Shown here: in pieces, positions 44,165 through 62,645 of the stretch
How the letters are laid out: each line of letters opens with the position of its first letter
How positions within the stretch are numbered: position 1 is the first letter of the stretch
From: Flectobacillus sp. BAB-3569
GTDB lineage: Bacteria > Bacteroidota > Bacteroidia > Cytophagales > Spirosomataceae
NCBI RefSeq assembly: GCF_002270355.1
Contig: NZ_NJFZ01000019.1
Span: 49-64,048 of the forward strand
Length of the DNA: 64,000 nucleotides
Direction of reading: 5' to 3'
The notes under the pieces: generated by a model
What the model saw: the letters and a program-made list of their open reading frames with translations, nothing else
Databases searched by the model: none
What the model was told of the DNA's origin: nothing
Made by a program: the position numbers and the translations under genes

Positions 44165-44194
44165 CATATTTGTTGTACATTAGTAACAAATATG
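44165..44194. promoter_or_regulatory. Operator-like inverted repeat before the toxin-antitoxin genes
   Basis: CATATTTGTT (44165-44174) and AACAAATATG (44185-44194) are perfect 10-bp inverted repeats with a 10-bp spacer, ending 8 bp before the antitoxin ATG. Such sites are where antitoxin-toxin complexes of this type repress their own operon. Confidence 0.6.
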
Positions 44195-44202
44195 TTATAA
44201 CT

Positions 44203-44703
44203 ATGGAAAAGTCAAGCATAAAAACAGGACGTTTTGACCCAAAACTCAGCATTAAACGTGCTCGTGAACAGAAAAAAGTCACCCTTGGGTCAACATTGGT
44301 AACCCCCACGCATACCTACACATGGAGTTCAAGCATGGAACGCTTAAACATTCTCCGTGAAGGGATTCCTTATGAGTCAATCGAAGTATTGAGTCAGCGC
44401 ATCAATACCTCTGTCAAAGATATTTTGCAGTTGATTGATATGCCTCAAACTACCTACAATAAGAAAAAACGAGAGCAAGCGCTCCTAACAGGTCGTGATA
44501 GCGAAATTGTTTTGTTGTCTATTGAACTGCTCGATTATGGTATTGAGGTATTTAATCAGGAAGAAGACAAGTTTCAGCGTTGGCTTAAGAAAAGTAATAT
44601 TGCGCTTGGCGGTGTTACCCCCGAAAGTTTACTAGACTCTACCACAGGTATTCAAGAAGTGATGAATTGCCTCAACCGACTTGAATACGGAAATTTAGCT
44701 TAA
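44203..44703 (+). CDS. Xre/MbcA/ParS-type antitoxin
   Basis: A 166-residue cytoplasmic protein started at MEKSSIKTG (ATG 44203), because the open frame before it runs through the repeat and the operator. N-terminal helix-turn-helix-like part (MERLNILREGIPYESIEVLSQRINTSVKDILQLIDMPQTTYNKKKR) and a C-terminal DUF2384 toxin-binding domain (IELLDYGIEVFNQEEDKFQRWLKKSNIALGGVTPESLLDSTTGIQEVMNCLNRLEYG). It neutralises the RES toxin and likely binds the inverted repeat just upstream. Its stop overlaps the toxin start by one base. Confidence 0.9.
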   Translation: MEKSSIKTGRFDPKLSIKRAREQKKVTLGSTLVTPTHTYTWSSSMERLNILREGIPYESIEVLSQRINTSVKDILQLIDMPQTTYNKKKREQALLTGRDSEIVLLSIELLDYGIEVFNQEEDKFQRWLKKSNIALGGVTPESLLDSTTGIQEVMNCLNRLEYGNLA

Positions 44704-45170
44704 TGAAAGTTTATAGAATCGAACGAGAAAAGTATCTGTCCACCACGCTACAGGGGATTGGAGCAGCGCTTAGTAAAGGTTTTCGTTGGAATAGTCAAAA
44801 TACCTATTTGGTTTATACCGCCGCTACTCGCGCATTGGCAATGCTCGAAGTAGCCGTTCACCTCGATTTGAGTGAGGATTTACCCAATGATCGGTATTAT
44901 GTAGAAATAGACATTCCCGACGATATAACTATTTTAGAATTAGCCAATGAAGATTTGCCTGAACAATGGGATGCAAAACCTCCATTGTTGGAAACCCAGT
45001 ACATAGGCGACGATTTTGTTAGAAGCAATAGTGCTGCTGTACTCAAAGTACCAAGTAGCATTGTGCCACCAGAATATAATTACCTTATCAATCCCAATCA
45101 TCCTGAAGCTGCCAAAATCAAAGTAATTTCAACGCAGAAACTCGCTTTTGATAAACGACTTAGGGGGTAA
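44703..45170 (+). CDS. RES-family toxin
   Basis: A 155-residue toxin with the family's Arg, Glu and Ser regions: VYRIEREKY and GFRWNSQNTYLVYTAATRALAMLEVAVHL at the front, and SNSAAVLKVPSSIVPPEYNYLINPNHPEAAKI at the end. RES toxins degrade or modify NAD+ and arrest growth until neutralised. TAATG overlap with the antitoxin means coupled translation. All key segments are present, so it looks functional. Confidence 0.9.
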   Translation: MKVYRIEREKYLSTTLQGIGAALSKGFRWNSQNTYLVYTAATRALAMLEVAVHLDLSEDLPNDRYYVEIDIPDDITILELANEDLPEQWDAKPPLLETQYIGDDFVRSNSAAVLKVPSSIVPPEYNYLINPNHPEAAKIKVISTQKLAFDKRLRG

Positions 45171-45667: not shown

Positions 45668-46591
45668 ATGATAAAAATATCTCGGGTATATAGTCTCTTG
45701 AAGCAAGGAAAAAGAAGCAATTTGGAAGATTATATATATCCCTCTTCGCCCCAATTAGGAAAAATATTCAGCAGAATATATATCGTTTGTGATGGCGTAG
45801 GCGGTGAGACTAAAGGAGAAATCGCAAGTAAATTGGTAGCTGAGACATTTGGAGAGATGTTATCCTCAATGAGTAACATTACAAGAGAGGATATTATAAA
45901 TGTACTTGAAAAAGCAACTTTAAGGATTAAGGAGTATATCGATGTTAATCCCGAGGCTATTAATATGAGTACGACGCTTACGATGGCTGTTATCAACTCC
46001 AATGAGATATTACTTGCATGGTGTGGAGATAGTAAAATTATACATTTTAACGCAAAAGAGATAAAATGGAAGAGTTTAGACCATAGTCTCGTACAACATT
46101 TAATAAATATAAATGAAATATCAATTGAAGAAGCAAAGAAACATCCTCAACGAAATGTCATAACAAGATGTGTTAATAAAGATACTCAAAAAGAGGATTT
46201 AGATTTTCAAGTCATTTCAAAAATTGAAAATGGCGATTATTTGATGTTAGCAACAGATGGTATCTTCGAGTACATGGAGATAAGTAATTTACCACATATT
46301 GCTCAAGACAAACAAGTAGATAAAAGTGAACTAATTGATGCATACTGCTCACACGAAACGAGAGATAACTACTCCATGTATCTGCTATCAATTAATAAGC
46401 CTAAAAATCCAAAACTTCTCAAGACTTTACTCTTACTAATTTCTATTATGTTGCTAGCAGGGGTACTAAGCTGGCACGTAGATCGTGCTCCTAAAAGGAA
46501 GAAGCAACTGCCTACGCTAGGTATTGCGAAGCAAGCCACTGCACAAATACCTATAATCATAGAAAATGACACTAATAAAACCCTAAAATAA
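45668..46591 (+). CDS. Membrane-anchored PP2C-type Ser/Thr phosphatase
   Basis: A 307-residue protein. The catalytic domain (1-242) has the PP2C metal-site motifs: R16..NLED (D21), VCDGVGG (D42, G43), STTLTMAVI, AWCGDSK (D121), ATDGIFEYM (D197) and RDNYSMYLL (D233). A single transmembrane helix at ~249-269 (KTLLLLISIMLLAGVLSW) is followed by a ~38-residue basic tail. The catalytic part is cytoplasmic. It would reverse phosphorylation made by the kinase encoded 30 bp downstream, a classic antagonistic pair. First gene of an 11-gene same-strand cluster. Confidence 0.88.
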   Translation: MIKISRVYSLLKQGKRSNLEDYIYPSSPQLGKIFSRIYIVCDGVGGETKGEIASKLVAETFGEMLSSMSNITREDIINVLEKATLRIKEYIDVNPEAINMSTTLTMAVINSNEILLAWCGDSKIIHFNAKEIKWKSLDHSLVQHLININEISIEEAKKHPQRNVITRCVNKDTQKEDLDFQVISKIENGDYLMLATDGIFEYMEISNLPHIAQDKQVDKSELIDAYCSHETRDNYSMYLLSINKPKNPKLLKTLLLLISIMLLAGVLSWHVDRAPKRKKQLPTLGIAKQATAQIPIIIENDTNKTLK

Positions 46592-46621
46592 ATCACTTGG
46601 TGCGTATACAACTACAAAAAT

Positions 46622-48265
46622 ATGGATTTTAAAAGTAGATATATCTATAATCTAAAAGAAGACTTAATTGGTAAGGGAGGTTTTGCCAGAGTATACAAAG
46701 CGCAAGATACACTCCTCGACCGATCTGTAGCCATCAAGGTTTTTAACAAATCAAATAATGGCTACTACACTGTACTTGAGGAGATTAAAAAGGTAATAAA
46801 ATATGAACATCCTAATCTAATAAGATATTATGATGTAGCATTGTTAGATAATACCAATGCTTTTGGAGAACGTGAAGAACTTCAGATCGGTATTATGGAG
46901 TTAGCTAATGCAGGTGATTTAAAGACTTTTGTTCTTGAAAATCCTCAATCGCCTCTAATCCTTGATCTACTCAAACAAGTATTACTAGGTCTAGGGTTTC
47001 TTCACAAAAAAGGTATTATTCATCGTGATCTAAAACCTCAAAATATATTATTAGTAAAGGAAGGAGACTGCCTAACTGCTAAGATATCAGACTTTGGAAT
47101 TAGTCGTAACGTAGAGGCTAATACTAATAGTGCATCATTGACTATTGGAACAATAGAGTACATGGCTCCTGAACAGTTTAACCCTGCACGATATGGGATA
47201 AATGGTAAGATATCTACTAATGTGGACATTTGGAGCTTCGGGATAATGTTATATGAATTACTTGTAGCAGAACCGCCTTTCGGTCAAAGGGGTGGTAGTA
47301 CCACTGCAGAACAAATCATGAACTCTATCCTTACAGCCCAGCTTCCCCCAAAAATTGACTCAATCAAAGAACCATTTAAGAGTATAATAAAAAAATGTTT
47401 GATAGCAGATGCAAATCTAAGAATTCGATATGCAGAAGATCTCCTTCCTTTCTTCAATGGCAATAGTTTTAGTGCTTCAAGGTTAGATGAAACCGATACT
47501 TTGATGCTGCATAAAGGTAACAATAAAATTGCACCAGTAGTCAATGATGAAACTGAAACACAAATTTTATCACCCCTTATCAATAGCCAAGATACCATTA
47601 CATTACCAATTTCAATAAAGTCAGATGCAACACAAATCCTTGGAGAAAAAACTTTTCAGACTAATAAGCAACCCAAAAATATTATCAAAGATAAAGTAGC
47701 AGGTGCTCATACAAAAGAAAAATTAGCCTCCCAAAGCATTAGTAAAGCATCCCCAAAAAAACCATCAATCTTAAATCTAAGTAAGGTTCAAAAACTAATA
47801 GGTGTAATAGTAGGTCTAAGCATCGCAAGTATTCTCTTTTATTATATTTTCCAACCTGAAAATATTCACGAAAAAGCACAGCTATTGGCACATGAAAAAC
47901 GTTACGATGAGGCTATACTGCTATTAAAGCAACATCAAAACGATAAAGCACAATCCGCTAATAACCGTATTCTTGAACAACTATATCTTGCAAAAGGAGA
48001 TACAATGAATGCCTTTCTACTCATGCAAAAATCATTTGCCAAAAGTGACTTTCAAAATGCGTATTTGCTAGGTCAATTATACTACTCGGGAAAGTTCACT
48101 AAACAGGATTTCAGCATGGCTAAAAAAGTATTTGAGAAAATAGAAAAAGATGATAGAGCACAAACGATGCTAGGGAATCTCTATTTTATGGGTCTTGGAG
48201 TTAAAAAAACTATTCCAAAGCCATCCCATATTATCAGAGAGCATCTAAACAAGGTAATTCTGTAG
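46622..48265 (+). CDS. Transmembrane Ser/Thr protein kinase with Sel1-like repeats, 3' frameshift
   Basis: The kinase domain (residues ~8-280) is complete: GKGGFARVYKA P-loop (17-27), AIK lysine K39, HRDLKPQN (134-141), DFG (157-159), APE (182-184) and DIWSFGIMLYELL. After a Ser/Thr-rich linker comes one transmembrane helix (~392-411, LIGVIVGLSIASILFYYIF) and a Sel1/TPR-like region (AYLLGQLYYSGKF, TMLGNLYFMGLGVKK) that would be periplasmic. At the A7 run 48203-48209 the frame is lost and ends at 48265. With one more A it would continue as NYSKAIPYYQRASKQGN to a stop at 48420. The catalytic part is unaffected. Partner genes are the PP2C phosphatase upstream and the FHA protein downstream. Confidence 0.88.
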   Translation: MDFKSRYIYNLKEDLIGKGGFARVYKAQDTLLDRSVAIKVFNKSNNGYYTVLEEIKKVIKYEHPNLIRYYDVALLDNTNAFGEREELQIGIMELANAGDLKTFVLENPQSPLILDLLKQVLLGLGFLHKKGIIHRDLKPQNILLVKEGDCLTAKISDFGISRNVEANTNSASLTIGTIEYMAPEQFNPARYGINGKISTNVDIWSFGIMLYELLVAEPPFGQRGGSTTAEQIMNSILTAQLPPKIDSIKEPFKSIIKKCLIADANLRIRYAEDLLPFFNGNSFSASRLDETDTLMLHKGNNKIAPVVNDETETQILSPLINSQDTITLPISIKSDATQILGEKTFQTNKQPKNIIKDKVAGAHTKEKLASQSISKASPKKPSILNLSKVQKLIGVIVGLSIASILFYYIFQPENIHEKAQLLAHEKRYDEAILLLKQHQNDKAQSANNRILEQLYLAKGDTMNAFLLMQKSFAKSDFQNAYLLGQLYYSGKFTKQDFSMAKKVFEKIEKDDRAQTMLGNLYFMGLGVKKTIPKPSHIIREHLNKVIL

Positions 48266-48420
48266 CGATGTACTCTCTAGGGTTAGCTTATATGAATGGC
48301 GCTGGGATTAATCAAGATCAACAGAAGGCACTTGATTTGTTTTATAAAGTAATTCAGAAAAACGACAATGCAGACGCTTCAAATGCAGCGAAAGCTGCAA
48401 TACTTAGTTTAAATAAGTAA
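48266..48420 (+). pseudogene. Displaced C-terminal Sel1 repeat of the kinase
   Basis: In the frame shifted by one base the sequence reads GNSVAMYSLGLAYMNGAGIN, then QKALDLFYKVIQKNDNADAS, ending at TAA 48418-48420. This is a typical Sel1 repeat continuing the kinase's periplasmic region. It is only reached if a base is added at the A7 run. Confidence 0.75.
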
Positions 48421-48482
48421 GTATTAGTGCTGAATTATCATGATTATTGGCACCAATAGCTCAAACTGCAAATTATCCTACC

Positions 48483-50462
48483 ATGGCAATGACAGAAAAT
48501 CAGATATTTGAAGAGCTCACTCTCATTCTTAACCAATCAATTAGTGTACGTGATAGGATTAATGCAATTCTCGCACAGCAAAGTCATGTTCTAGAAACTA
48601 TCACCATGCAAGAAAATAGCCTCAACACTTATTTAATTGAGGCTAAGAGTAGTTCAGACATTGCCCGGCAGTCAGCATTAGATGCTAAAAGTGATGGGCA
48701 AATCATAGAACAAATTAAGCAAGAAGCCTCTGCTGACTCACAACAAATTGAACAGTTCAAAAACGATGTTAGAGCAGATGCTTTAGAAGTAGAACAAGCA
48801 AAAAATCAAGCAAAAGCTGATGCTCTAGAGGTAGAACAAGTCAAGAATCAAGCGAAAGCTGATGCGCAAGAAGCTGAGCAAGCAAAAAATCAAGCGAAGG
48901 CGGATGCGCAAGAAGCCGAACAAGCAAAAAATCAGGTAAAAGCCGATGCGCAAGAAGCTGAACAAGCAAAAAATCAGGCAAAAACCGACGCACAAGAAGC
49001 TGAACAAGCGAAAAATCAGATAAAGGCAGATGCTCAGGAAGCTGAACAAGCCAAGAATCAAGCGAAGGCCGATGCACAAGAAGCTGAACAAGCAAAAAGT
49101 CAGGCAAAAGCTGATGCGCAAGAAGCTGAACAAGCAAAAAATCAAGCGAAAGCTGATGCGCAAGAAACTGAGCAAGCAAAAAATCAAACAAAAGCTGACG
49201 CACAGGAGGCTGAACAAGCAAAAAATCAAGCAAAGGCGGATGCACAAGAAACTGAACAAGTAAAAAATCAAGCAAAGGCGGATGCGCAAGAAACTGAACA
49301 AGCGAAAAATGATGCAAAAAGTGACGCGCAAGAAACTGAACAAATAAAAAATCAAGCAAAATCGGATGCGCAGGAGATAGACTCAATTAAAGAACAAGCA
49401 AAGGCGGATGCTCAGGAAGCTGAACAAGCGAAAAATGATGCCAAAAGTGACGCGCAGGAAGCAGAGCAAGCAAAAAACCAAGCAAAGGCTGATGCTCAGG
49501 AAGCTGAACAAGCAAAAAACCAGGCAAAAAATGATGCCCAGGAAGCAGAGCAGGCAAAAAATGATGCGAAAAATGACGCGCAAGAAGCTGAACAGGCAAA
49601 GAATGATGCGAAAAATGATGCGCAAGAAGCCGAACAGGCAAAAAATGATGCGAAAAATGATGCTATAGAAGCTGAGCAAGCAAAAAATCAAGCTAAAGCT
49701 GATGAGCAAGAGACAGAACAAGCCAAGAATGAGGCAAAGGCTGATGCGCAAGAAGTTGAACAGGCAAAAAATGAAGCACGTGCCGATGCACAAGAGGCTG
49801 AAAATTTAAAGAATGAAGCAAAAAATGATGCAAATGCAATTGAACAACTAAAACTTGAAACTAAAGCTGATGCACAAGAAGCTGAACAGGCAAAAAATGA
49901 CGCTAAGTCAGATGCAACAGAAATAGAACAAATAAAAAGTGACGTTAAGGCAGATGCACAGGAGACAGAACAAGCAAAAAATGATGCTAAAGCCGATGCT
50001 CAAGAGGCAGAACAAGCAAAAAATCAAGCTAAAGAGGATGCAAATTTAACAGATAGTGCTCGCCAAGCTGCTGAAGATGATGCAAAATCAGCAGAAAAGG
50101 CTCGTCAAGATGCTCAAACAGATGCTACTTCCACTGAAAATGCAAAAAAACAAGCTGAAGCTGATGCCACAGAAACTGAAAATATGAAAGTACAATCACA
50201 ACAAGATGCAGCGGAAGCTGAAACAGCTAAAGAGCAAGCAAGATCGTATGCTCAGCAGGCGCTAAGCTATTCCGAAGCTACCTTGATGCACAAAAACTCA
50301 GCAACAAGTTTATTAGCTACCATTGAGGCAGATGGAAACTTAGTAAAAAACCATCTTAATACCATAGACAGTCTTGAGGATGCGGTTAGAAGGATGTCTC
50401 TCATGGCAGCACAGTATCGCGATAGCGCCCATCATTGTGCAAATATGGCATGTCATTATTAA
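48483..50462 (+). CDS. Alanine-rich coiled-coil protein, ~37 near-identical 14-residue repeats
   Basis: A 659-residue cytoplasmic protein; ATG 48483 (MAMTENQIFEEL) chosen as the first good start. Residues ~70-590 consist of about 37 copies of a 14-residue unit, consensus QAKADAQEAEQAKN, which is exactly two heptads with alanine at the core positions. This predicts one long, highly charged Ala-coil rod of roughly 75-80 nm if fully helical. Ends are different: an N-terminal helical head (ILNQSISVRDRINAILAQQSHVLETI) and a C-terminal part with His and Cys (YRDSAHHCANMACHY). No signal or membrane segment. I recognise no named family; scaffold or filament is the likely role. Confidence 0.8.
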   Translation: MAMTENQIFEELTLILNQSISVRDRINAILAQQSHVLETITMQENSLNTYLIEAKSSSDIARQSALDAKSDGQIIEQIKQEASADSQQIEQFKNDVRADALEVEQAKNQAKADALEVEQVKNQAKADAQEAEQAKNQAKADAQEAEQAKNQVKADAQEAEQAKNQAKTDAQEAEQAKNQIKADAQEAEQAKNQAKADAQEAEQAKSQAKADAQEAEQAKNQAKADAQETEQAKNQTKADAQEAEQAKNQAKADAQETEQVKNQAKADAQETEQAKNDAKSDAQETEQIKNQAKSDAQEIDSIKEQAKADAQEAEQAKNDAKSDAQEAEQAKNQAKADAQEAEQAKNQAKNDAQEAEQAKNDAKNDAQEAEQAKNDAKNDAQEAEQAKNDAKNDAIEAEQAKNQAKADEQETEQAKNEAKADAQEVEQAKNEARADAQEAENLKNEAKNDANAIEQLKLETKADAQEAEQAKNDAKSDATEIEQIKSDVKADAQETEQAKNDAKADAQEAEQAKNQAKEDANLTDSARQAAEDDAKSAEKARQDAQTDATSTENAKKQAEADATETENMKVQSQQDAAEAETAKEQARSYAQQALSYSEATLMHKNSATSLLATIEADGNLVKNHLNTIDSLEDAVRRMSLMAAQYRDSAHHCANMACHY

Positions 50463-50481
50463 CCGTCATTTCTCCAAAAGA

Positions 50482-52584
50482 ATGGATATAGCAAGCTTAC
50501 TAACAAAAGCACAAGAAACATATCAACAGTTAGTGGATATTGAGGATTTCTTGTCAAAGCAAAAGTCTGATTTCAAGCCGAAAGACATGAACCTACTGTT
50601 AGGGCAACTTAAGCAGTATAGTATTGTCGCTAAAGATTTTGCTCAAAATACAGAAATGTTAAAGCAGGAGTCGTTGGCAGATGCACAACAAATTGAAATT
50701 GCTAAGCAAATATGTACTGCAGCTAGACAAGAAACTGAATCTGCCAAAAGTCAAGCAATGGCAGATGTAATAGAGACGGAGGAATTAAAAAATCTCGCAA
50801 AGTCTAATGGAGTCGATATTGATGCTCAGAAAAATAATACTTTGAGTGATGCTACAGAAGCTGAAATACTAAAAACAACCTCAATTGCCTACGTTCAAGA
50901 ATCCGAACAAGCTAAAAATCTGGCGGTTGAAAGTGCTCATGAAACAGAATTTTCCAAGAATTCTACTTTGTCTGACGTACAAGAATCTGAGCAATTGAAG
51001 AACGTAATATCTGCTCATGTCCAAGAAGTTGAACAAATCAAAACTCAAATATTAAGCGAAGTACAAGAGGTTGAACAAATCAAAAATATTACAAAAAACG
51101 AAGCTACAGAATCTGAAAATGCGAAAAATGACGCCAATGCGAGTAAAATAGAAAGTGAAGAATTTAAAAACCTAGCACTTTCAACAACTCAAGAAACTGA
51201 GCTCCTAATAAATGCAGCAAAATCAGATACGCAAGAAATTGAAATATTGAAAAACTCTGCAAAATCAGATCAACAGGAAAGTGAAAAAGCAAAAAATGAT
51301 ACCAGAAATGAGGCGCAGGAAACAGAACAAATTAAGAATACTTCAAAATCTGATGCAAATGCTGTACAACAAGCAAAAACTATAGCTAAAGAAAGTGCTC
51401 AAGAAGTCGATTTAGTAAAGAATCAAGCAAAATCTCATGCTCAAGAAACTGAGCAAGCGAAAAATGAGGCAATCAGTGACGCGAATGAATGTGAACAAAA
51501 TAAGATAGTTGCCAAAAATAAGGCTACCGAATCTGAACAAGCTAAAAATGAGGCTAAAAGCAACATGTTAGCAGCAGAACAAGCTAAAAATGAAGCTCAT
51601 GGAAATGCTTCTCAAACTGAACAGGCAAAAAACGAAGCAAAAAACGAAGCAAAAGAAGCTGATTTAGCAAAAACCAATGCAAAAGAACGTGCACAGGAAG
51701 CTGAACAACTCAAATCATTAGCTAAAAGTCATGCTAATGAGAGCAACTCGGCCAAGAATCAAGCTAAAGATGATGCCAAAGAAACAGAACTTATCAAAAA
51801 TAATGCTAAAGCACATTTTGCTGAAATAAAACAAGTTAAAGGTGAGGTATTCAGTGATGTTACACAAATAGAACAAGAAAAAAATATTGTAAAATCACTA
51901 GCTCAAGAAATAGATACAATCAAGTCGGAAGCATTAAGTGATAGTAAAGAAACAGAACAACTGAAAAATCAAGCAAAATCATTGGCATCTGAAACAGAAC
52001 AGCTGAAAAATGATGCTAATGCAGACAAGCAAGATGTTGAAACGAACAAAACAATAACTCTGGCACTTGCAAAAGAAATAGAAAATATAAAACAAGAGAC
52101 CCTAAACGATGCTCAAGAAACCAATCAGATAAGAAGCGCCGCCCAAACTTTTGCTTCAATGGCAGAACAATCAAAGTTCTCAGCAGCGAATGATAGCACA
52201 CAAGCTTCCAAAGCTAAAGAAAGTGCTGAATCTGATGCAAGCGAGACTGAAAGTTTTAAGAATAAAGCTCAAACTGCAGCAAAGGAAACAGAGCTCTCTA
52301 AAAGAAATACTCAACTAGACGCCCAAGAAACAGATGGGTTTGCAAATGATGCATCAAGTCAAATGTTAAATGCAGAACATCTTAAAAATGAAATAGAACA
52401 GCTTCAAAAGCACTCATCAGAGCTAGATGCTCGAGCATATCAGCATGTACAACAAGCAACCTCAATACAAATGAGTGCTCAAATTCAACTAGACGATTCT
52501 GAAAACTCAATGCACATTGCCCAAGAAGAAGCTCAGCGTGCTCGCGAGTGTAGAATCAGAAGAGCTTCCCTATGGAATTTTTAA
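50482..52584 (+). CDS. Second coiled-coil protein, diverged 14-residue repeats
   Basis: A 700-residue cytoplasmic protein starting at MDIASLLTKAQETYQQL (ATG 50482), 19 bp after the previous stop. It is a paralogue of its neighbour: the same 14-residue register (e.g. AKSHAQETEQAKNE, AKNKATESEQAKNE, AKSDANAVQQAKTI) runs from ~80 to ~640, but units have diverged and more Ile, Leu and Val fill core positions. Distinct head (DFLSKQKSDFKPKDMNLLLGQ) and basic tail (RARECRIRRASLWNF). The pair may co-assemble. Function unknown. Confidence 0.8.
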   Translation: MDIASLLTKAQETYQQLVDIEDFLSKQKSDFKPKDMNLLLGQLKQYSIVAKDFAQNTEMLKQESLADAQQIEIAKQICTAARQETESAKSQAMADVIETEELKNLAKSNGVDIDAQKNNTLSDATEAEILKTTSIAYVQESEQAKNLAVESAHETEFSKNSTLSDVQESEQLKNVISAHVQEVEQIKTQILSEVQEVEQIKNITKNEATESENAKNDANASKIESEEFKNLALSTTQETELLINAAKSDTQEIEILKNSAKSDQQESEKAKNDTRNEAQETEQIKNTSKSDANAVQQAKTIAKESAQEVDLVKNQAKSHAQETEQAKNEAISDANECEQNKIVAKNKATESEQAKNEAKSNMLAAEQAKNEAHGNASQTEQAKNEAKNEAKEADLAKTNAKERAQEAEQLKSLAKSHANESNSAKNQAKDDAKETELIKNNAKAHFAEIKQVKGEVFSDVTQIEQEKNIVKSLAQEIDTIKSEALSDSKETEQLKNQAKSLASETEQLKNDANADKQDVETNKTITLALAKEIENIKQETLNDAQETNQIRSAAQTFASMAEQSKFSAANDSTQASKAKESAESDASETESFKNKAQTAAKETELSKRNTQLDAQETDGFANDASSQMLNAEHLKNEIEQLQKHSSELDARAYQHVQQATSIQMSAQIQLDDSENSMHIAQEEAQRARECRIRRASLWNF

Positions 52585-52673
52585 CCATGAATATTAAAAT
52601 CAAGACTATTTCTAAACTCGCTCATCGGAACCTAGAAAATTTATTCTTATGTATAACTAAACACTAAAATAGG

Positions 52674-53378
52674 ATGACTCGAAGTGAAATTATTGACTTC
52701 TTAAGCCTAGCTCAAGACATAACCAATGAAGAGCTATTGAAGGCTATTCAAGAAAAGGAAGGGTATTTTAAAAGCCTTATCAACAATGCTCCAACTAACC
52801 TATTGAAGAAAGTTTATGAAAGAAATATTGAGAAACTTAGCGAATGTAGGGATTTTCTGAAAAATACTTCTTCAAATAATAGTATAAATAATTTAAAGCC
52901 AGATATCAGTATAAAAAATGATATTCCTAAAAGCTATTTAGACTCTACAACAGCTCCCACATTTAATCGTGACCCAGCATGGCTTATTAGGCATACTGAA
53001 AATAGTGCTACGATATCTTTTATCCTAAAAGAAGGCATCAACACCATAGGTAGGCTAACCAAAGACTCCAACCTTAATATAGCTATAGAGGATGACATGT
53101 TTGTTAGTAGAAAACACGCTATTATCGAAATAAAAGAGAGTGACTATATTTTATACGATGTTGGCGACTCTGGACTTCCTGCCTCAAAAAATGGGGTTTT
53201 TGTGAACGGTTCAGATAAGAAACTGATGGGAAAATACTCCTTGAGAGAAGGGGATACTATTCAATTTGGAAAGACAAAATTTGTCTTCAAAATCAATACT
53301 CATCGCAACCTTGAAGAGGTAGTCAATGAAGTTAGTAATACAAATTACATGCGAACTGTAGTAATCAACATATTATGA
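52674..53378 (+). CDS. FHA-domain phosphopeptide-binding protein
   Basis: A 234-residue cytoplasmic protein. N-terminal ~1-65 is helical with no family I recognise (IDFLSLAQDITNEELLKAIQEKE). The FHA domain (~105-215) has all binding residues: G126-R127 in TIGRL, S145 and H148 in SRKHA, and N173 in KNGVFVNG. It should bind phosphothreonine, probably on the kinase or on the coiled-coil proteins. Its TGA overlaps the ATG of the next gene (ATGA), so the two are translated together. Confidence 0.9.
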   Translation: MTRSEIIDFLSLAQDITNEELLKAIQEKEGYFKSLINNAPTNLLKKVYERNIEKLSECRDFLKNTSSNNSINNLKPDISIKNDIPKSYLDSTTAPTFNRDPAWLIRHTENSATISFILKEGINTIGRLTKDSNLNIAIEDDMFVSRKHAIIEIKESDYILYDVGDSGLPASKNGVFVNGSDKKLMGKYSLREGDTIQFGKTKFVFKINTHRNLEEVVNEVSNTNYMRTVVINIL

Positions 53379-55087
53379 CACATAATTTAGATCCCATTTT
53401 TGAGAAAATAAATTCTATCCAAAAAGATATTGGATACACAAATCAATATGGCTTTTTTGAGCTTATCAAAAAAGATTCCGAAAGTATTGAAAAACAACAA
53501 ACTCTCCCGATTGACCTAATAGCATCGGAGAACGATGATAAATTACAAAACTACTTGATTAATCAATTAGAAAATCATGGAATAGAGGTAACTCTTAAGA
53601 AAATCGATCCAAAACCAATTGCTTATCCTTCACTTATTGCGAACATCCTTATGATTTTTTTTGAGGATTCTTCTGCAGAAGCAATTATGGATATACTGGC
53701 GTCTCAACGCAATCATTACAAAAAAGTATATCTCGTCAACAACGTCAACTCACAGATTCTTATTGATCAAATTCTTGATTTCTGTAAAATAAATCTAATC
53801 ACCAGCCAATCCATATCTTTTCAGTCTGAAGATGATATTGATATTTTCATCAAAACAATTGATAAACATAAGCTACTATTACTTTCTAAACTGAGTACTC
53901 TCAAGCCCGTTGTAGAATATATTAACCAAATTGTTAAAACTGAGAATAGAATTTTACATAGTCAAAAAAGCTTACTAATTCAGGATACGATGTATCTGAA
54001 AAAAGCAGATTCAAATAGTTTTTCAGAAATCAATAATACAGTTAGATATTCTATTCTCAAAAACCTCCAAGAAGTAGAGAAAGGTGTAAAAATTAAATAT
54101 GAAGAGTTTAGTAAACCTAATTATGGCTATTTCAGCGAGCGAATAGCTCATTTCATTAACCTATTAAAATACAATGATTTAAATCAAATCGATGTTGCAG
54201 ACAAATACGAAAAAATTGAGCTTGGACTAAATGATAATATCACACAAGAGTTTTTCAAATTTAATGAAACAGAGTTATTGAAAGAATTTCGAAAAGATTC
54301 AGCGCTATTAAAGACAATTACACAGTCCACATTTGATGAACTAAACCAACTCTTAAGTCGATTTAAACTCCCTAAAATGACCATAGAGAAATTTGTACTC
54401 CCTGACCTTAATCCAACTTTAATGGTACAAGGCAATAACTATATGCAAAAAAACTTTAGAGGGGAGATTACTAAAGAAGGTCGAAATGAATACCTAATCG
54501 CTTTGAGAGACTACACTGGTATCATTATGGTAATTGTTGGTCTATTAATGCCTCTCAACCTACTCATTCAAGGTGTTGACTTTTTTTCAGATGGCGAACA
54601 AGTGCCCAAAACCCTAGCTGAGGTTAACAACGTGTATGAATATCTGGCTTTTTTCGCTAAAAAAACTAAACTAGCCATTCTATTAATTACCTCAATACTA
54701 TCGGGTATTCTGATCTGGTATGGTGTGATTGACCTTAAAGTGAGGATTCCTCGTAAGCGTAAAGAGGAACGAGAACGAGAAACTCAAAAGGCAAAAGACC
54801 ACCTTCAATCAGAAGCAAAAAGAATCTACAACGATAGCTATAAAGATTGGGTAAATAACCTTTCAAACTACATTAGAGAACTTACTCAGAATATCACATT
54901 TGAGGTAGATACTATCTTAAAAAACGCTACTAAGAAAGCCCAAGATGTGAGCAACAACAAAAAACAACAATTATCTAATAGTCAGTCTATTATAGACAAT
55001 AAATTAAGAAACTTACAACTTGCTGAGAAAACTTGTGAAAGTCTACAAAAAAGTATTTCAGAACAAAAAGACAGAATTATAATATGA
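53375..55087 (+). CDS. Unknown protein with central membrane hairpin
   Basis: A 570-residue protein I cannot assign. Residues 1-370 are mixed alpha/beta then helical (e.g. ANILMIFFEDSSAEAIMDIL; LKKVDSN-like helices). There are two transmembrane helices (~380-400, IIMVIVGLLMPLNLLIQGV; ~431-452, AILLITSILSGILIWYGVI), then a long charged coiled coil (KRKEERERETQKAKDHLQSEAKR). The layout resembles bacterial dynamin-like proteins after their GTPase, but there is no P-loop. Coupled to FHA upstream and Hsp70 downstream by 4-bp ATGA overlaps, hinting at a complex of the three. Confidence 0.75.
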   Translation: MTHNLDPIFEKINSIQKDIGYTNQYGFFELIKKDSESIEKQQTLPIDLIASENDDKLQNYLINQLENHGIEVTLKKIDPKPIAYPSLIANILMIFFEDSSAEAIMDILASQRNHYKKVYLVNNVNSQILIDQILDFCKINLITSQSISFQSEDDIDIFIKTIDKHKLLLLSKLSTLKPVVEYINQIVKTENRILHSQKSLLIQDTMYLKKADSNSFSEINNTVRYSILKNLQEVEKGVKIKYEEFSKPNYGYFSERIAHFINLLKYNDLNQIDVADKYEKIELGLNDNITQEFFKFNETELLKEFRKDSALLKTITQSTFDELNQLLSRFKLPKMTIEKFVLPDLNPTLMVQGNNYMQKNFRGEITKEGRNEYLIALRDYTGIIMVIVGLLMPLNLLIQGVDFFSDGEQVPKTLAEVNNVYEYLAFFAKKTKLAILLITSILSGILIWYGVIDLKVRIPRKRKEERERETQKAKDHLQSEAKRIYNDSYKDWVNNLSNYIRELTQNITFEVDTILKNATKKAQDVSNNKKQQLSNSQSIIDNKLRNLQLAEKTCESLQKSISEQKDRIII

Positions 55088-56594
55088 ATTTAGGAATAGA
55101 TTTAGGATCAAGTAATACTTTGGTTGCCACTCTTACAAAAGATAGAACACCAATAATCATACCTGATAACCTCGATAAAAATGCGGAAACCACGCCAAGC
55201 GCCATTATTATAGATAACAACAAGGTTATAGTGGGGAGTTTAGCAAAAATATTTATCAGGCATATCCAGATAAAAACCTTTATACCTTTTTCAAAAGACA
55301 TTTTGGATCTTATATTCCATTAGGACTTACGCAACAACAGCTTCCTATTTTTAGTGAAACATTAGCCTCAATCATGCTTAAAAAGGTGGTATATGATGCG
55401 AAACTCTTCATTAATGAGGACATTAACAAGATTGTTGTAACAGTACCTTCGCATTACAATGACCTACAACGTAGATCTGTTATAGAAGCAGCCAGACTTG
55501 CGAATGTTCAACTCACTTCCTTATTAGATGAACCTATTGCCGCCGCTTTGTATTATATCGGCGAAAATAACGCTTTAAACCAAGAGCTAATCCTGATTTA
55601 CGATTTAGGGGGCGGGACTTTCGATTTATCAGTCCTTACTAAAAATGGAGAACAAATTCACGTAGTAGCAAAAGGAGGAATCAATAATATTGGAGGAGAA
55701 GAATTTGATCAAATCATCATCAACAAGATAAAGCAAGTCTATTACAGAACCTTTGGTATTACTATCAAAGACTCTATTTATAACAATAATCTTCTCAAAA
55801 TATTAGCCGAAGAATGTAAAATAACCATCAATCAGACCAATCAAGGATTAGAAAAATGGTTCTACTTTGACAATCGATTCTTTAGAGTATATTTCGACAT
55901 AAAAGAATATAATACATTTGCCCTAGAAATCATTAGAAAAACGGAGGAATGTGTAAAAGATACACTGAAAAAATTGGGACTAAGTCTCCCAGACATCAAT
56001 CAAATTATTCTGATTGGTGGCGCTAGCAATAGTAAACTTCTCTATGAATATTGGCAAAAACAGATAAATACCGCATTCCAAAAAATTATCTATCACCAAC
56101 CGCTTACTAGTGTATCCAAAGGAGCTGCAATTTACGCAAATAGTTTCTCTAACGATCAGGAAGCATCTAAATCAAATCTTGATCTCAAAAATGTAAGTTC
56201 TTACAACATTGCCATCAAAACAAAAGAGTCTAGAGAACCTGAATTAATCATTCATAAAAATACACCATTGCCAGTATCAGGTAAAAAAATCTATGCTTTG
56301 GATACAAGAGCTAGAAGAACCGAACTTGAGCTATGCCAATACCTTGACTCTAAAGAATTTACTCAGCCTTTAGGCATAATTTCAATAGAAAACTCTTCCA
56401 TAAGTAGAGAATCTAGTATTGAATTAGTCATTGAGAATAAAGTTGATGGAACTGTAGGAATAAAAATCTTTAACCCCCATTCAGGAGCACCACTAAAGTT
56501 TGATTTCATTAATAATGATTCAGAGGCAAAATATGACTTCGTTCAGCAAAAATCACTTATTGACTCACTATTTATCAATAACCTTGTTGACTAA
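55084..56594 (+). pseudogene. Hsp70/DnaK-like ATPase, frameshifted at an A5 run
   Basis: The first part reads MNLGIDLGSSNTLVATLTKD, the phosphate-1 loop of Hsp70, but goes out of frame at the A5 run 55245-55249 and stops at 55323. Adding one A restores NIYQAYPDKNLYTFFKRHFG and joins the rest: DEPIAAALYYIG, YDLGGGTFDLSVL (phosphate 2), LIGGASNSKLL (adenosine). The repaired protein is ~503 residues: full nucleotide-binding domain, a beta substrate-binding-like domain, and no helical lid. Without a grpE or dnaJ nearby, it is more likely a dedicated chaperone or switch for this cluster than the housekeeping DnaK. Confidence 0.82.
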
Positions 56595-56606
56595 AATTTA
56601 AAAATA

Positions 56607-57239
56607 ATGGTAAAATCTTTACTTATTCTCCAAGTTATCTGGCTAATGTACTTTCCCTCATTAGGTCAGTCGCTACCTACTATAGAAAGTAACAGTAAAG
56701 TGACAAAAACTAAGACTGAAAAAAAGGCAAAGCCCTTAAAAGATCTAACACCTCCCAAAATTCACTCAATTGGGAAGCAGATAGATGGGTATTATGAGTA
56801 TTATACCTTAGATGAAGGACACCTTTATTCGGGTCTCTTGAAAAATGGTAAACCAAACGGATACGCGTTTATCTATTCGAAACTAGATACCTCTATAATC
56901 TTCGAGGGGCAAATAAATGATCAGGATGATATTTCTCGAAAAATAGAAGAAAATACAAAAGGGTATGAATATTACTTGGAAAAGGGTGAATCCGCCTTGA
57001 AGCAAGACCATAAACCTGTAGCGATAAATTCATTTAAAAAAGTTAAAACATTACTAGGAAACAAGGTATCTCAAAATACAAAGTGTAAAGAAATCATCAC
57101 ATCAGCCATTTCAAATGGAGATAAGTTTGCAGGAGTAGACGAATATAAAACTGCCCTTAGCTGGTATTTAATAGCACAATCCCTAGATAATAGTAAGGCA
57201 CTTCAAAATAAAATAAATCAATGTAAATCAAAGCTTTGA
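56607..57239 (+). CDS. Exported MORN/TPR-like small protein
   Basis: A 210-residue protein with signal peptide (MVKSLLILQVIWLMYFPSLGQ). Residues ~60-95 contain a MORN-type unit (GHLYSGLLKNGKPNGYAFIYS) and ~110-205 form two or three TPR-like helix pairs (YYLEKGESALKQDHKPVAINSFKKV; YKTALSWYLIAQSLDNSKAL). No catalytic motif. It is probably an adaptor in the periplasm. It follows the Hsp70 gene by 12 bp. Confidence 0.7.
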   Translation: MVKSLLILQVIWLMYFPSLGQSLPTIESNSKVTKTKTEKKAKPLKDLTPPKIHSIGKQIDGYYEYYTLDEGHLYSGLLKNGKPNGYAFIYSKLDTSIIFEGQINDQDDISRKIEENTKGYEYYLEKGESALKQDHKPVAINSFKKVKTLLGNKVSQNTKCKEIITSAISNGDKFAGVDEYKTALSWYLIAQSLDNSKALQNKINQCKSKL

Positions 57240-57284
57240 TTGTTCATAATGGCATTTCAGCCACTAATAATTGAAAATATTGGT

Positions 57285-58379
57285 ATGAAAAATAAAAAAA
57301 CTCTTTCACTCTTTCTATTCATTATACTACTAACTACTAAGGTAAAAATGGTAGTTGCACAAGATTATATTTATACAAAAGATAATGAAGTCTATAGTGT
57401 CAAAATCACTCATTTCAACCCTACAAATATTGAGTATATTCTTGATAATTCAACATCAAAAACGACCAGAGCTCTTAGTGAAATAGCTTTAGTCATCAAT
57501 GATAGAGGATATATTATTTTACCCGAGGAATTAGAGTCTGAAAATCGAGAAATATTTATTAATGAATATCAGAACATAAAAAGAATTAGTGAGAAATACG
57601 ATATAATCCTTTACAAACAACCTCTCGAATCCGTTAGGTGTAATATTAGTTATGAATCTAACGAAATCGTTAATTTCAAAACCATAAAATCGGGAGATAG
57701 TCAAACAGAAAATAAAAAAGATTTATTGTTCATTCTCTACACCAATGGAAAGCATAGTTTTTTTGCTTCACCCACCTCTATTTCATTGTCTACACTAAAA
57801 AAGAAGCTACTTGAGAAGGCCGATATTAGCACAGCAACCACTCATACTACCACCACCCAAATCATTAAGCTGTCTAATGCTGAAATGGAGTCATACAGCA
57901 AAAAAGCTGAGTTAAAAGTAGATGGCTTTAGTAGTTTCTTAAACCTCATTGCAAACAAAGAATTGTCATCAGAGGAAAAAGATAAGGTGATCGAACAAGC
58001 TACAAAACTATTTACCCCTGGTGCAACCATACAGGTGTCATTCCGCAAGCCCGACGGTACAGTATCAGTGGCAACACGAAAAATTGAAGAGTATTTGAAG
58101 AAGTTAAAGCTATCTAAATTTAGTAGTGTTAAAATAGAATGGTCTGATATTCAATATATAGGAGATTTAAAACAAGAGGCAGATGGCAATTATTATGGTA
58201 CTATCACAGGAGAGCAACGATTTTCTGGATATAATAAAAATGGTAAGATTTCTTACAGTGATATTGTAAAAAAGGATGTTAAAGTAATGATTACGACCTA
58301 TAATAAAACAATTGACGCAGTAGAAAAACGTCAATGGGAGGTCTTTCTAGGTAATATTGGAATTGTAGAAAACAAATAA
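57285..58379 (+). CDS. Exported protein of unknown function
   Basis: A 364-residue protein; ATG 57285 gives the signal peptide MKNKKTLSLFLFIILLTTKVKMVVAQ, which decides the start. It opens DYIYTKDNEVYSVKITHFNPTNIEYILDNS, a beta-rich segment common in secreted Bacteroidota proteins, and ends in a beta domain (VSFRKPDGTVSVATRKIEEYLKKL). I do not recognise a family and see no enzyme motif. Conserved position inside the cluster is the main clue. Confidence 0.7.
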   Translation: MKNKKTLSLFLFIILLTTKVKMVVAQDYIYTKDNEVYSVKITHFNPTNIEYILDNSTSKTTRALSEIALVINDRGYIILPEELESENREIFINEYQNIKRISEKYDIILYKQPLESVRCNISYESNEIVNFKTIKSGDSQTENKKDLLFILYTNGKHSFFASPTSISLSTLKKKLLEKADISTATTHTTTTQIIKLSNAEMESYSKKAELKVDGFSSFLNLIANKELSSEEKDKVIEQATKLFTPGATIQVSFRKPDGTVSVATRKIEEYLKKLKLSKFSSVKIEWSDIQYIGDLKQEADGNYYGTITGEQRFSGYNKNGKISYSDIVKKDVKVMITTYNKTIDAVEKRQWEVFLGNIGIVENK

Positions 58380-58447
58380 TCTAGCAGTTAATTATCAGAT
58401 CATTTACTCATTTTTAGCAAAAATTTAGGGTTAGAATCGAACGCAAT

Positions 58448-61306
58448 ATGAAAAAATTATACCACGCATTACTACTAATAATCATTTACCTTAGCTCAAC
58501 AGCAACTATTGTTTCTCAAACTATTACCCAAAAAGAAAGCGAGGAAATCAAACTTTCTGCCAAGAGAAAAATTCAAAATGGATTTAAAGACTTACTAAAC
58601 TTTATCACAGATGAATCAATTGGTGATGCCGAAAAGCTAGCGACTATAAAGGATAGTTATTCAAATAGCAATATTCAAGTCTTTTACAATAGTCAGACTA
58701 TTTTAGAAGATGATATTAATCCCAACTATTACAATGGAAACAACATTCACGATCTTAATGTAGAAAAATACCTAAACGCTTTAGATATTCTCTACACCAA
58801 AAGTATCGAGAGCTCAATAGAAATAAACATCTTGAGTGTTTCAAACGTAAAACAGGTAGGAGGTACAATGTTTATTAAAGTATATTTTGAATGTCTGTTT
58901 AAAAATTCACATAGAACAATAAAAGTTGCCTATAAAAAGAATGATAGAGTTGCCGAACTAAAGGTTGAACATATAGGTAAAAAGTGGATAACCAACATCA
59001 CTCGTGTAGCATTCGGAAAAGTTAATGATGAAACAGGTAAAAATGATCTTGCCATAACACAGGTAGTCGAATCTGCCACCAATCAACCTAAAGAATCAGA
59101 AGTCATTCAAACCAACGAATCTCAAAAAGACGTCAATGAATTTAATCGTTTATTGGCAGATGCTGACGATGCCTTCAAGGCCAAAGAATATGATATTGCA
59201 CTACAGGCATACTCTGAAGTTCTAAAAAAGGACAGAGACGAATACGGTAAATCATTCTATATCAAAAAACAAATCTCTCTCTCGAAAAGAGAAATACAAA
59301 AAGAACAAGACCTAAAAAAACAAGAAGAGGAACGTCTAGCTCAAAAGCAAAAAGAGGACAATTACTTTAAAGTAATATTTGAAGCTAAAACTTTTGAGCG
59401 CAAACGATATTACGGAAAAGCTATTCAACAATACCAAGCAGCGTTTAGAATAATACCTGATTCAGCTATTCTATACCAGGAAACCATTAGAAATCTGAAT
59501 AAAGAACTAAGCCTAAAAACAGAAGCAGATGAAATGTTTTTAGCGGGAAACTTCAAAGAGCTGAAACGAAAATATGATGCCTATATCAAAAAAGATCAAT
59601 CCAACTCGGATTATTTCCTTGGCCGAGCAAAGTGCTCAATTCAACTAGGTGATTCTCCCAAAGCCATCCTTGAGGACTTGGACCAAGCGATTAGTCTTGA
59701 CTTTAGTAATACCTATGCTTTTAAAGTAAGAGCTGAGTTTTATACTTCTCAAAATAATATTCCAAAAGCCATTGCTGATTATACAAACTTTCTAAATATT
59801 GAGCATGATAGTGCATCTATCTATGCCATAAGAGCTACTTTAAAAACAAGAACTAACAATACCCAAGGAGCACTTGAAGATTATGAGAAAGCCATACAAT
59901 TGGATAAAAGAAACCCCAAATACTATTATGAACGAGGAATAATACATACGCAAAATAGCTCTTGGCAAAAAGCTATTACTGATCATACCGAGGCAATATC
60001 TATAGATCCAAAAATGGCTCAAGCCTATTACTACAGAGGAGAAGCTTATTACAATCTAAAAAAGTATAAGGAAGCTGGTCAAGATTTTTCCAGGGCGATT
60101 AGCCTACAAATTGATGATAATCTGGCTAATAATATTCGACAACATTCGGAGGAGTTTTTTCTAATCGGAGACAGAGCTCTTGAAAATAATGATATAGCAT
60201 TTGCCATATCAAGTTTTACCAACAGTGTTCTTATACTACCCTACAATTATAGATCGTGGTATAAGATTGGGGAATCATATCAAAAAGAAGGTAAACTACT
60301 TGAAGCAATAACAAACTACACAACTGCAATAAAATATAACGATTCTTATGATGATGCTTATTATGGACGCGGTTATGCAAAGTTTTATTTGAACAGATAT
60401 AAAGAGGCTCTTGAGGATTTCCACAAAGCCAACGAATTGGTAGGGAATTATTACAACGCTATATTTTACGAAGCTAGAACCCTCATGTTATTGAAAAATT
60501 TCAAATCAGCGATTTTACTATTTCAAAAAATTAAAATAGCAAAATCGACTATAGAAAAAAGTTACTCGAAAGATTTTTTTGCTAATACACATTTGTACTT
60601 GGGCATAGCAATGATTGAAGAAAAGTATATTGCAGAAGCTAGTACAGAACTAAGCTCGGCTATCAAGATAAACCCTTACTTGTCAGAAGCTTACTTTCAG
60701 AGAGGTCTAGTATATCTACAATTAAATAACTTGGAGTCTGCATTGAGTGACCTCAATCAAACAATCACGCTTGGACCAAACAATAGCCAGAAAGAAATGG
60801 CAATAGGTAACGCTTTGTATAATATGGAGAACTACAGCCAAGCTACCAATGCTTTCCAAGAATCTATTAATCTTGATACCCTGAAATCCAATTACTATGA
60901 AGCCCATAAAATGAAAGCTTACTGTTTCTTCAAACAAAATCAACATGCAGAGGCTGCCCAGACATTTGTTAAAGCAATAGAGTATAAATCTAAACAGGAC
61001 GATTCAAGCATTTATCGAGATTTGACAGTGAGCTATCTATTTGATGGTCAAAGCTCAAAAGCATTATCAGTCATTGAAAATGTACTTAAAACAGATCCAG
61101 AAAATGTAGAAATCAATTATCTATTAGTATGTTATTATGTACAAACTCAAAGTATGGAAATAGCCTTAAAAATTTTAGAGAAACTCTTCACTCTCAATGC
61201 AGTGGACAATAACTTCATAAAAAAGGATAGGTTAATTAATACCATAGATAGTAGCTTTAAAACTTCTAAGGACTATAAAGCTCTTTTAAAAAGAATCGCA
61301 AAATAG
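58448..61306 (+). CDS. Large exported TPR protein
   Basis: A 952-residue protein with signal peptide (MKKLYHALLLIIIYLSSTATIVSQ). Residues ~30-195 form an alpha+beta domain of unknown type (DLLNFITDESIGDAEKLATIKD ... TIKVAYKKNDRVAELKVEHIGKKW). From ~230 to ~940 there are at least 15 tetratricopeptide repeats, e.g. GALEDYEKAIQLDKRNPKYYYERG and AYYYRGEAYYNLKKYKEAGQDFSRAI. It is a protein-binding platform, presumably periplasmic. The spacing and order place it with the OmpA-like gene 25 bp downstream. Confidence 0.85.
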   Translation: MKKLYHALLLIIIYLSSTATIVSQTITQKESEEIKLSAKRKIQNGFKDLLNFITDESIGDAEKLATIKDSYSNSNIQVFYNSQTILEDDINPNYYNGNNIHDLNVEKYLNALDILYTKSIESSIEINILSVSNVKQVGGTMFIKVYFECLFKNSHRTIKVAYKKNDRVAELKVEHIGKKWITNITRVAFGKVNDETGKNDLAITQVVESATNQPKESEVIQTNESQKDVNEFNRLLADADDAFKAKEYDIALQAYSEVLKKDRDEYGKSFYIKKQISLSKREIQKEQDLKKQEEERLAQKQKEDNYFKVIFEAKTFERKRYYGKAIQQYQAAFRIIPDSAILYQETIRNLNKELSLKTEADEMFLAGNFKELKRKYDAYIKKDQSNSDYFLGRAKCSIQLGDSPKAILEDLDQAISLDFSNTYAFKVRAEFYTSQNNIPKAIADYTNFLNIEHDSASIYAIRATLKTRTNNTQGALEDYEKAIQLDKRNPKYYYERGIIHTQNSSWQKAITDHTEAISIDPKMAQAYYYRGEAYYNLKKYKEAGQDFSRAISLQIDDNLANNIRQHSEEFFLIGDRALENNDIAFAISSFTNSVLILPYNYRSWYKIGESYQKEGKLLEAITNYTTAIKYNDSYDDAYYGRGYAKFYLNRYKEALEDFHKANELVGNYYNAIFYEARTLMLLKNFKSAILLFQKIKIAKSTIEKSYSKDFFANTHLYLGIAMIEEKYIAEASTELSSAIKINPYLSEAYFQRGLVYLQLNNLESALSDLNQTITLGPNNSQKEMAIGNALYNMENYSQATNAFQESINLDTLKSNYYEAHKMKAYCFFKQNQHAEAAQTFVKAIEYKSKQDDSSIYRDLTVSYLFDGQSSKALSVIENVLKTDPENVEINYLLVCYYVQTQSMEIALKILEKLFTLNAVDNNFIKKDRLINTIDSSFKTSKDYKALLKRIAK

Positions 61307-61331
61307 ACATCTTCATAAACAACATATCATA

Positions 61332-62645
61332 GTGATTTTACGCTTGCTATCCATTTTACTTTTTCTGATATTCAATCATACAAATTTGGTCTTAGGTAGT
61401 CCTCTAGATATCAAAATAAGAGGACTACTTATTGATGCCATTACTACAAAATCAGTATCAGCAAATATCTATTGGGCTTATTCAAGTAATTCAACACTTA
61501 TTTGGAGTAATCCTACTTTTTCTGATGGGCATTTTGACATTAAATTAAAAGATAAAGCCATCAAGCTGAGAATTGAAGCAACGGGATATGAAAGTGTTAT
61601 AATAGATTTATCACTCGATAAATCAAAGACTGCTAATTTGTTTTTAAAGATTCCCTTACTTAAACAAACCACGCACCAACTCAATAAAATATTTTCTCAG
61701 TCAACGACCAAGTCAGATAAAACAAAAAAAACTACCGATAATAAACATCATAAAGTTACAAATATTGAATTTATAGCAGTTAATGGTCTTACACATGAGC
61801 CACTTGCAGCTACTTATAAGTTTGTACCTACAAATTTTTCAAAATCAGAACATTACACAACCAGCGTCGAAAATCCTCATTTAGCATTAACATTTAATGG
61901 AAATGATATATATGCGGTAGAAATCGCTGCTGATAATTTTCAAACTTTTTTAGGTAATCTTATCATTGATAATTTAGATAGTCGCACACATCATGATACT
62001 ATTTATTTAGCTAAAGAACTAGTTTTTCTGAATATAATAACTCAAAAAGTAGGAACTTTAGATGATATTTATATCTCAAAATATGGCTCGAAAGCACCAC
62101 ATTTATTTCAAAAATTAAGCTTTAGTCATGAAATAGCCTACGAAACCCTAGAAAAGAACGAAAGGTATCAATTATATATCATAAACGATAAAAAAGATAC
62201 TATTTCACATACTTTTCAAGCTACCCACAATATTTATCAAATCCTTAGCGACACACTTTCAAAATCTATAAATCATCCTAATCAAAATTACCATAAATCT
62301 ATTTTATACTTTGAAGCAAGTGATTTTCATCTCAAACCAGAGTCATATGATCATTTGAGAGAGGCCATCAAGAGAGCAAAATACCAAAAAGAATTATTAA
62401 TTGATATTTATGCTTACACTGATAATTTAGGCGAGTTTTATGCAAATCTGTACCTTTCTGAAATCAGGGCGATGTACATAAAAAATACGTTATCCGCCGA
62501 GGGAATATCAGATAAACGAATTAGATGTATACCTATGGGAAGCAAAAACCCTATCTCCAAGAATAAGGATGAAGCGTCTAGAAGTCAAAATAGGAGAGTA
62601 GAAATAATATTATACAATCCTACAATATCAAAAAATAGCAAATAG
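61332..62645 (+). CDS. OmpA-like peptidoglycan-binding protein
   Basis: A 437-residue exported protein; the start is GTG 61332, giving MILRLLSILLFLIFNHTNLVLG. Residues ~25-110 and ~145-220 are carboxypeptidase-regulatory-like beta domains (IRGLLIDAITTKSVSANIYW; VNGLTHEPLAATYKFVP). Residues ~320-435 are an OmpA C-terminal domain with LLIDIYAYTDNLGEFYANLYLSEIRAMYIKNTL and SRSQNRRVEI, which bind peptidoglycan. No beta-barrel is visible. It anchors the system to the cell wall. Last gene of the cluster. Confidence 0.85.
   Translation: MILRLLSILLFLIFNHTNLVLGSPLDIKIRGLLIDAITTKSVSANIYWAYSSNSTLIWSNPTFSDGHFDIKLKDKAIKLRIEATGYESVIIDLSLDKSKTANLFLKIPLLKQTTHQLNKIFSQSTTKSDKTKKTTDNKHHKVTNIEFIAVNGLTHEPLAATYKFVPTNFSKSEHYTTSVENPHLALTFNGNDIYAVEIAADNFQTFLGNLIIDNLDSRTHHDTIYLAKELVFLNIITQKVGTLDDIYISKYGSKAPHLFQKLSFSHEIAYETLEKNERYQLYIINDKKDTISHTFQATHNIYQILSDTLSKSINHPNQNYHKSILYFEASDFHLKPESYDHLREAIKRAKYQKELLIDIYAYTDNLGEFYANLYLSEIRAMYIKNTLSAEGISDKRIRCIPMGSKNPISKNKDEASRSQNRRVEIILYNPTISKNSK

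Follow-up and report, generated by a model that had tools for sequence, protein, structure and literature searches.

An eleven-gene cluster in Flectobacillus that appears to join a threonine-phosphorylation and envelope set to a coiled-coil, dynamin-like and Hsp70 core

In this work we ask what kind of system is encoded by eleven same-strand genes at 45668-62645 of a 64,000-nucleotide stretch of Flectobacillus sp. BAB-3569 (contig NZ_NJFZ01000019.1; hereafter the window), which lies within a 168-kb contig of a 6.6-Mb draft genome whose nearest named relative is Flectobacillus longus. A first-pass annotation, made from the letters alone, had proposed a coherent envelope-spanning phospho-system; gene order and domain content support that proposal, which had missed a J-like domain, two frameshifts and the relatives of these genes in type VI secretion system (T6SS) loci of the T6SS-iii type. 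Comparison of the predicted proteins with those of other genomes shows two modules joined in one cluster: a putative threonine-phosphorylation and envelope set, with relatives in T6SS-iii loci, and a predicted core of coiled-coil, dynamin-like, Hsp70 and J-like proteins. New here are a J-like domain without the HPD motif on a protein with an FHA domain, a predicted phosphothreonine reader, a membrane hairpin protein that resembles dynamins in its modelled fold and has no P-loop, an Hsp70 without a lid and with an altered linker, and coiled coils built on 14-residue repeats.

Conservation and composition of the cluster

Judged by sequence comparison, the cluster is conserved well beyond chance and is under purifying selection. 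Two further Flectobacillus species, F. longus (L006) and that of genome G001 (L007), retain 11/11 genes in the same order between different flanks, with protein identities of 40-84%, and the ratio of nonsynonymous to synonymous substitution rates (dN/dS), roughly estimated where dS could be obtained, is 0.01-0.27, a combination that argues against chance assembly. Across the three species the proteins are 43-96% identical in the stretches compared, with synonymous sites near saturation, and the hairpin gene is present in three of the five Flectobacillus genomes. Co-inheritance, which the first-pass annotation had predicted, is thus borne out, as are its eleven same-strand genes, its two ATGA overlaps (53375 and 55084) and a set of parts spanning cytoplasm to wall, the last indicated by predicted transmembrane (TM) segments, signal-peptide-like N-termini on the exported proteins and an OmpA domain. 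In a Pfam scan of the cluster proteins, PP2C, Pkinase, FHA, HSP70, TPR and OmpA all exceeded their cut-offs, with the FHA match being the only one in this genome, while the 570-residue hairpin protein and the exported protein p210 matched no Pfam family and the exported protein p379 matched none above cut-off. A p210 profile matches residues 479-572 of a kinase of G178, a genome of another genus in the same family. The earlier statement that no named system matches the whole cluster also held, with no NCBIfam family above cut-off for the core proteins and nothing on this gene set in the open-access papers searched.

Two genes carry single-base frameshifts in A runs that had gone unrecognised. 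The kinase reading frame stops early at an A7 run (48203-48209), its Sel1 tail resuming in another frame to about 48420, and the Hsp70 gene, which starts at ATG 55084, breaks at an A5 run (55245-55249) where F. longus has A6, the frame opening at 55374 being only its C-terminal part. In L006 and L007 the kinases (617 and 621 residues) and Hsp70s (503 residues) are intact. Sequence on either side of each break remains under constraint, as judged by protein identity and dN/dS, so the breaks are either recent or sequencing errors.

Table 1. Genes and domains of the cluster, in window positions.
Feature	Position	Strand	Remarks
PP2C-type phosphatase	45668..46591	+	Pfam PP2C 1.1e-9; C-terminal TM 250-268
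Ser/Thr kinase, TM, periplasmic Sel1	46622..48265	+	Pkinase 9.6e-51; TM 389-407; frameshifted
CC1, coiled coil with 14-residue repeat	48483..50462	+	likely start 48483 by homology
CC2, diverged coiled coil	50482..52584	+	period 14/42; likely start 50482 by homology
J-like domain without HPD, residues 1-64 of FHA protein	52674..52865	+	
J-like/FHA adaptor protein, 234 residues	52674..53378	+	FHA at residues 124-199, 2e-14
Hairpin: dynamin-like-fold membrane protein without P-loop	53375..55087	+	two TM: 374-392, 434-452
Lidless Hsp70	55084..56594	+	HSP70 1.8e-44; open part of frameshifted reading frame 55374-56594
p210, exported	56607..57239	+	C-terminal half resembles periplasmic end of G178 kinase
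p379, exported	57285..58379	+	likely start 57285 by homology; family mostly near T6SS-iii genes
Exported TPR protein, 952 residues	58448..61306	+	Pfam TPR; conserved N-terminal domain
Exported protein with OmpA peptidoglycan-binding domain	61332..62645	+	OmpA 3.4e-15

A core of coiled-coil, hairpin, Hsp70 and J-like proteins

Using the hairpin protein and its profile as queries over evenly drawn genome samples (the family, order, second-family and phylum samples overlap), we recovered the core outside the genus from G178 and from three genomes of another family in the same order (G509, G906 and G987). The core is rare, with counts of 4/200 in the family, 4/390 in the order and 3/196 in the second family. 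Among 395 genomes drawn across the phylum, the hairpin protein was found only in its own genome and as one weak false match (G646), which was rejected as a carrier of the core since its neighbourhood is unrelated. The core is kept at low identity in all four genomes. One 22.6-kb contig of G178 encodes a coiled coil and hairpin together with an FHA/J-like protein, kinases, PP2C and Hsp70; in the second-family loci, genes for a small protein, a coiled coil, the hairpin and Hsp70 precede those for a J-like/FGE protein and a number of J-like membrane proteins. Neither kinase nor PP2C nor FHA could be detected in these three core loci, suggesting that the core there does not need phosphorylation. 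On these comparisons, CC1, CC2, the FHA protein, the hairpin protein and Hsp70 form a separate predicted core within the cluster. One second-family stretch (L056:18012-20000 into L057) encodes three tandem J-like/TM proteins that differ in their C-terminal parts, one of them confirmed as FGE-sulfatase-like.

The protein that appears to connect the two modules is the FHA protein. A profile built only from the J-like domains of G509 picks up residues 1-64 of the Flectobacillus FHA proteins at domain E-values of 2e-9 to 1e-7, in a small sequence set, and the J-like family profile matches DnaJ2 in PDB (E 1.3e-6) as well as DnaJ-sized frames of about 380 residues across the order. One proline is invariant among 18 aligned J-like domains, and an AlphaFold model of the domain folds as three helices with a predicted local distance difference test score (pLDDT) of 90.5. 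The two domains occur in opposite order, J then FHA in Flectobacillus and FHA then J in G178, and these opposite arrangements suggest that they are functionally linked. The FHA protein therefore probably links phospho-signalling to Hsp70, a connection that is stronger than the first-pass annotation could know, since it had overlooked the J-like domain at the N-terminus of this protein. Beyond the core, the J-like profile retrieved mostly DnaJ-type proteins, and an 839-residue frame of G365 (L049:12143-14620) was set aside as a core member, being a lone J-like/TonB-type protein without other core genes.

The membrane hairpin of the earlier description is present as two TM segments, but the protein is better described, on the basis of its predicted model, as dynamin-like in fold and without a P-loop. 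In the AlphaFold model (seven sequences, pLDDT 68) an alpha/beta domain is combined with long helices and with a membrane hairpin; with this query of pLDDT 68, the best Foldseek matches are a bacterial dynamin pair (5oxf, E 4.2e-6), and VIA-align superposes the model on 5owv with Z 12.3 and a root-mean-square deviation of 9.1 over 409 residues. Response-regulator folds also fit the N-terminal part of the model, whose confidence is moderate. The P-loop motif GxxxxGK[ST] was absent from the hairpin proteins of all seven genomes.

The Hsp70s form a family lacking the C-terminal lid, ending after the substrate-binding beta domain at 491-507 residues. The linker Asp of DnaK matters for the action of J domains on it; in the Hsp70s of Flectobacillus and of the second family this residue is Asn or Gly. 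Nucleotide motifs are kept in the Hsp70s of the Flectobacillus relatives, G509, G906 and G987.

All ten coiled-coil proteins examined have a period of 14 residues or a multiple of 14. In CC1 the period is 14, with 60% self-match, and is encoded by a 42-bp tandem repeat of 29.9 copies. The first-pass annotation had the kinase phosphorylating these coiled coils, which would form a rod-like scaffold or cell-shape element. The adjacency of very long coiled coils to the kinase and FHA protein, and the presence of the 14-residue repeat in every relative, are in keeping with such a role; however, the CC1 repeat unit EAEQAKNQAKADAQ contains neither Thr nor Ser, the protein as a whole has 4.2% Thr and 4.5% Ser, and in three genomes the core occurs without a kinase in the locus, and we consider this model improbable.

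Relatives of the phosphorylation and envelope genes in T6SS-iii loci

The first-pass annotation had dismissed T6SS, and in doing so missed the closest relative of the cluster: no Tss genes lie here, as it stated, but PP2C, kinase, FHA, p379, TPR and OmpA relatives are found within T6SS-iii loci of sister genera. Homologues of p379 occur in 88/200 genomes of the family and the sheath protein TssC in 70/200. TssC is present in 55 of the 88 genomes with p379 and in 15 of the 112 without it (odds ratio 10.8, kinship not corrected), and in 35/44 genomes with listed coordinates for both, the two genes are no more than 30 kb apart. With the same TssC query, none of the five Flectobacillus genomes gave a match at E<=1. 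PP2C, kinase, FHA, p379 and OmpA are encoded together within about 20 kb of ClpV/TssB/TssC in G181, G003, G051 and G162, and similarly, although split over more frames, in G196; most of these loci also encode the TPR N-terminal domain, and OmpA adjoins p379 in them. As PP2C, kinase and FHA are common domains, their T6SS link depends on their being encoded near p379, TPR and OmpA, which are rarer proteins. T6SS identity was checked on one locus, where matches to TssK, VgrG and ClpV/TssH were significant and below the NCBIfam cut-offs. In a 2024 study (PMC10781749), T6SS-iii systems without some membrane-complex components are reported to be concentrated in three genera, Spirosoma, Hymenobacter and Flavobacterium.

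Where they could be read (G181, G003, G051, G162 and G102), the FHA proteins of T6SS-iii loci start with a zinc ribbon, and neither Hsp70, hairpin, J-like domain nor 14-residue repeat occurred in any of the 21 loci examined. This bears on whether the cluster is simply the remnant of a lost T6SS, its switch and envelope genes being T6SS-iii leftovers among which chaperone genes were later inserted by chance. The same families do stand in T6SS-iii loci of sister genera, TssC is missing from the five Flectobacillus genomes, and two genes are frameshifted in this genome. Yet two other species keep all eleven genes intact and under constraint, and the FHA protein has, where its T6SS-iii relatives have a zinc ribbon, the J-like domain that belongs to the core, which joins the modules within one protein. 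Furthermore, trees of p379, PP2C and OmpA place the Flectobacillus rows on a branch of their own, not inside the T6SS rows. We therefore think it unlikely that the cluster is such a remnant, rather than a combination of two modules.

The C-terminal domain of p379 showed no convincing relation to the TPR N-terminal domain (probability 10%); it also occurs in frames of about 200 residues (L103, L104, L105, L106), including genomes that have only the core. A caspase-like (Peptidase_C14) gene lies between PP2C and kinase at the G181 locus (L078:6265-7083), close to T6SS-iii genes. Just upstream of the cluster, outside the conserved block, the window encodes an Xre/MbcA-type antitoxin and RES-domain toxin pair (44110-45170), preceded by a 115-bp tandem repeat of 1.9 copies (43886-44109).

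A conditional model and its relation to known systems

From this architecture and its conservation we infer, step by step, a membrane kinase/phosphatase switch coupled to the chaperone and membrane core through the J-like/FHA adaptor, with the exported proteins fastening the site to the cell wall. This is the likeliest of the readings considered, and in our judgement it is evenly balanced between right and wrong. The periplasmic Sel1 part of the kinase, perhaps with p210, would sense the state of the envelope, and the kinase would phosphorylate threonine on itself or on another membrane protein. The FHA domain could then bind the phosphorylated site and bring along the J-like domain, which would draw Hsp70 to the inner membrane and the dynamin-like protein there; at this site the Hsp70 ATP cycle may assemble or release the coiled coils. 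PP2C would reset the switch. p379, TPR and OmpA would tie this site to the wall and outer membrane, and may do the same for T6SS-iii; candidate outputs are a scaffold, membrane repair or defence.

Several observations count against this coupling. HPD is found in 0/18 aligned J-like domains, which may consequently not engage Hsp70 in the usual way, and Foldseek with the J-like model returned nothing at E<=0.001, its hits being a mixture of MIT and J domains. The G178 Hsp70 (L011:16293-17768) lacks the DLGGGT motif and so may not hydrolyse ATP. On the side of the envelope set, p379 and TPR also occur together in other settings (a second copy in G001, and G005), and the separate branching of the Flectobacillus rows lends no support to descent from a T6SS locus.

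Beyond the coupled switch, the core with its HPD-less J-like adaptors might represent an undescribed envelope machine that takes different inputs through the J-like domain, a T6SS-type phospho-switch here and FGE, Sel1 or lectin-like membrane proteins in other bacteria; we offer this broader proposal tentatively, as possible though somewhat doubtful. If the FHA/J-like coupling is real, it would let envelope signalling act directly on a chaperone, by a route not found described in the open-access literature searched. The exported genes common to T6SS-iii loci are candidate wall-anchoring parts of those systems in sister genera, and HPD-less J-like domains offer a sequence handle for finding more such systems.

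Among known systems, the GTPase-centred conflict systems combine Hsp70, J domain, kinase and PP2C (Kaur et al. 2020, PMC7159879), and this likeness in parts, together with the dynamin-like fold, the patchy distribution and, in the second family, J-like/TM proteins in tandem whose C-terminal domains vary, raises the prospect of a defence system. By contrast with those systems, the dynamin-like protein here has no GTPase P-loop, no toxin domain was seen, and such systems would not usually include an exported half that extends to the wall. PADLOC returned no match for J-FHA, hairpin, Hsp70, p210, p379 or TPR; its matches to kinase, PP2C and OmpA look like general domains and were not taken as a known defence system. 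A defence role accordingly seems to us to have a slim chance. No Pfam or NCBIfam match to tubulin, vWA or GrpE was found among the nine cluster proteins scanned, and the exclusion of a TerY-type triad by the first-pass annotation stands, with neither vWA nor TerD matched in these nine.

The core proteins each resemble, and depart from, well-known machines. In its modelled fold, by Foldseek and VIA-align, the hairpin protein resembles the bacterial dynamin-like pair (5OXF/5OWV), IniA and BDLP, and like them it has paired membrane segments, but with about 10% identity, no P-loop in seven homologues and a model of pLDDT 68 whose N-terminal part is also matched by response-regulator folds. The Hsp70 and J-like domain recall DnaK/DnaJ chaperones and Pam16-type J-like proteins in family membership and J-domain sequence similarity; unlike DnaK/DnaJ, the Hsp70 lacks a lid and the linker Asp is replaced, and the J-like domain lacks HPD. 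Closest in overall design is the T6SS threonine phosphorylation pathway (PpkA/PppA/Fha), with its membrane kinase bearing a periplasmic part, PP2C, FHA and an OmpA-type wall anchor; kinase, PP2C and FHA are likewise encoded together, and p379 and TPR have homologues in T6SS-iii loci. Set against that pathway, Flectobacillus has no TssC, carries a J-like domain instead of a zinc ribbon on its FHA protein, and adds Hsp70, a dynamin-like protein and coiled coils.

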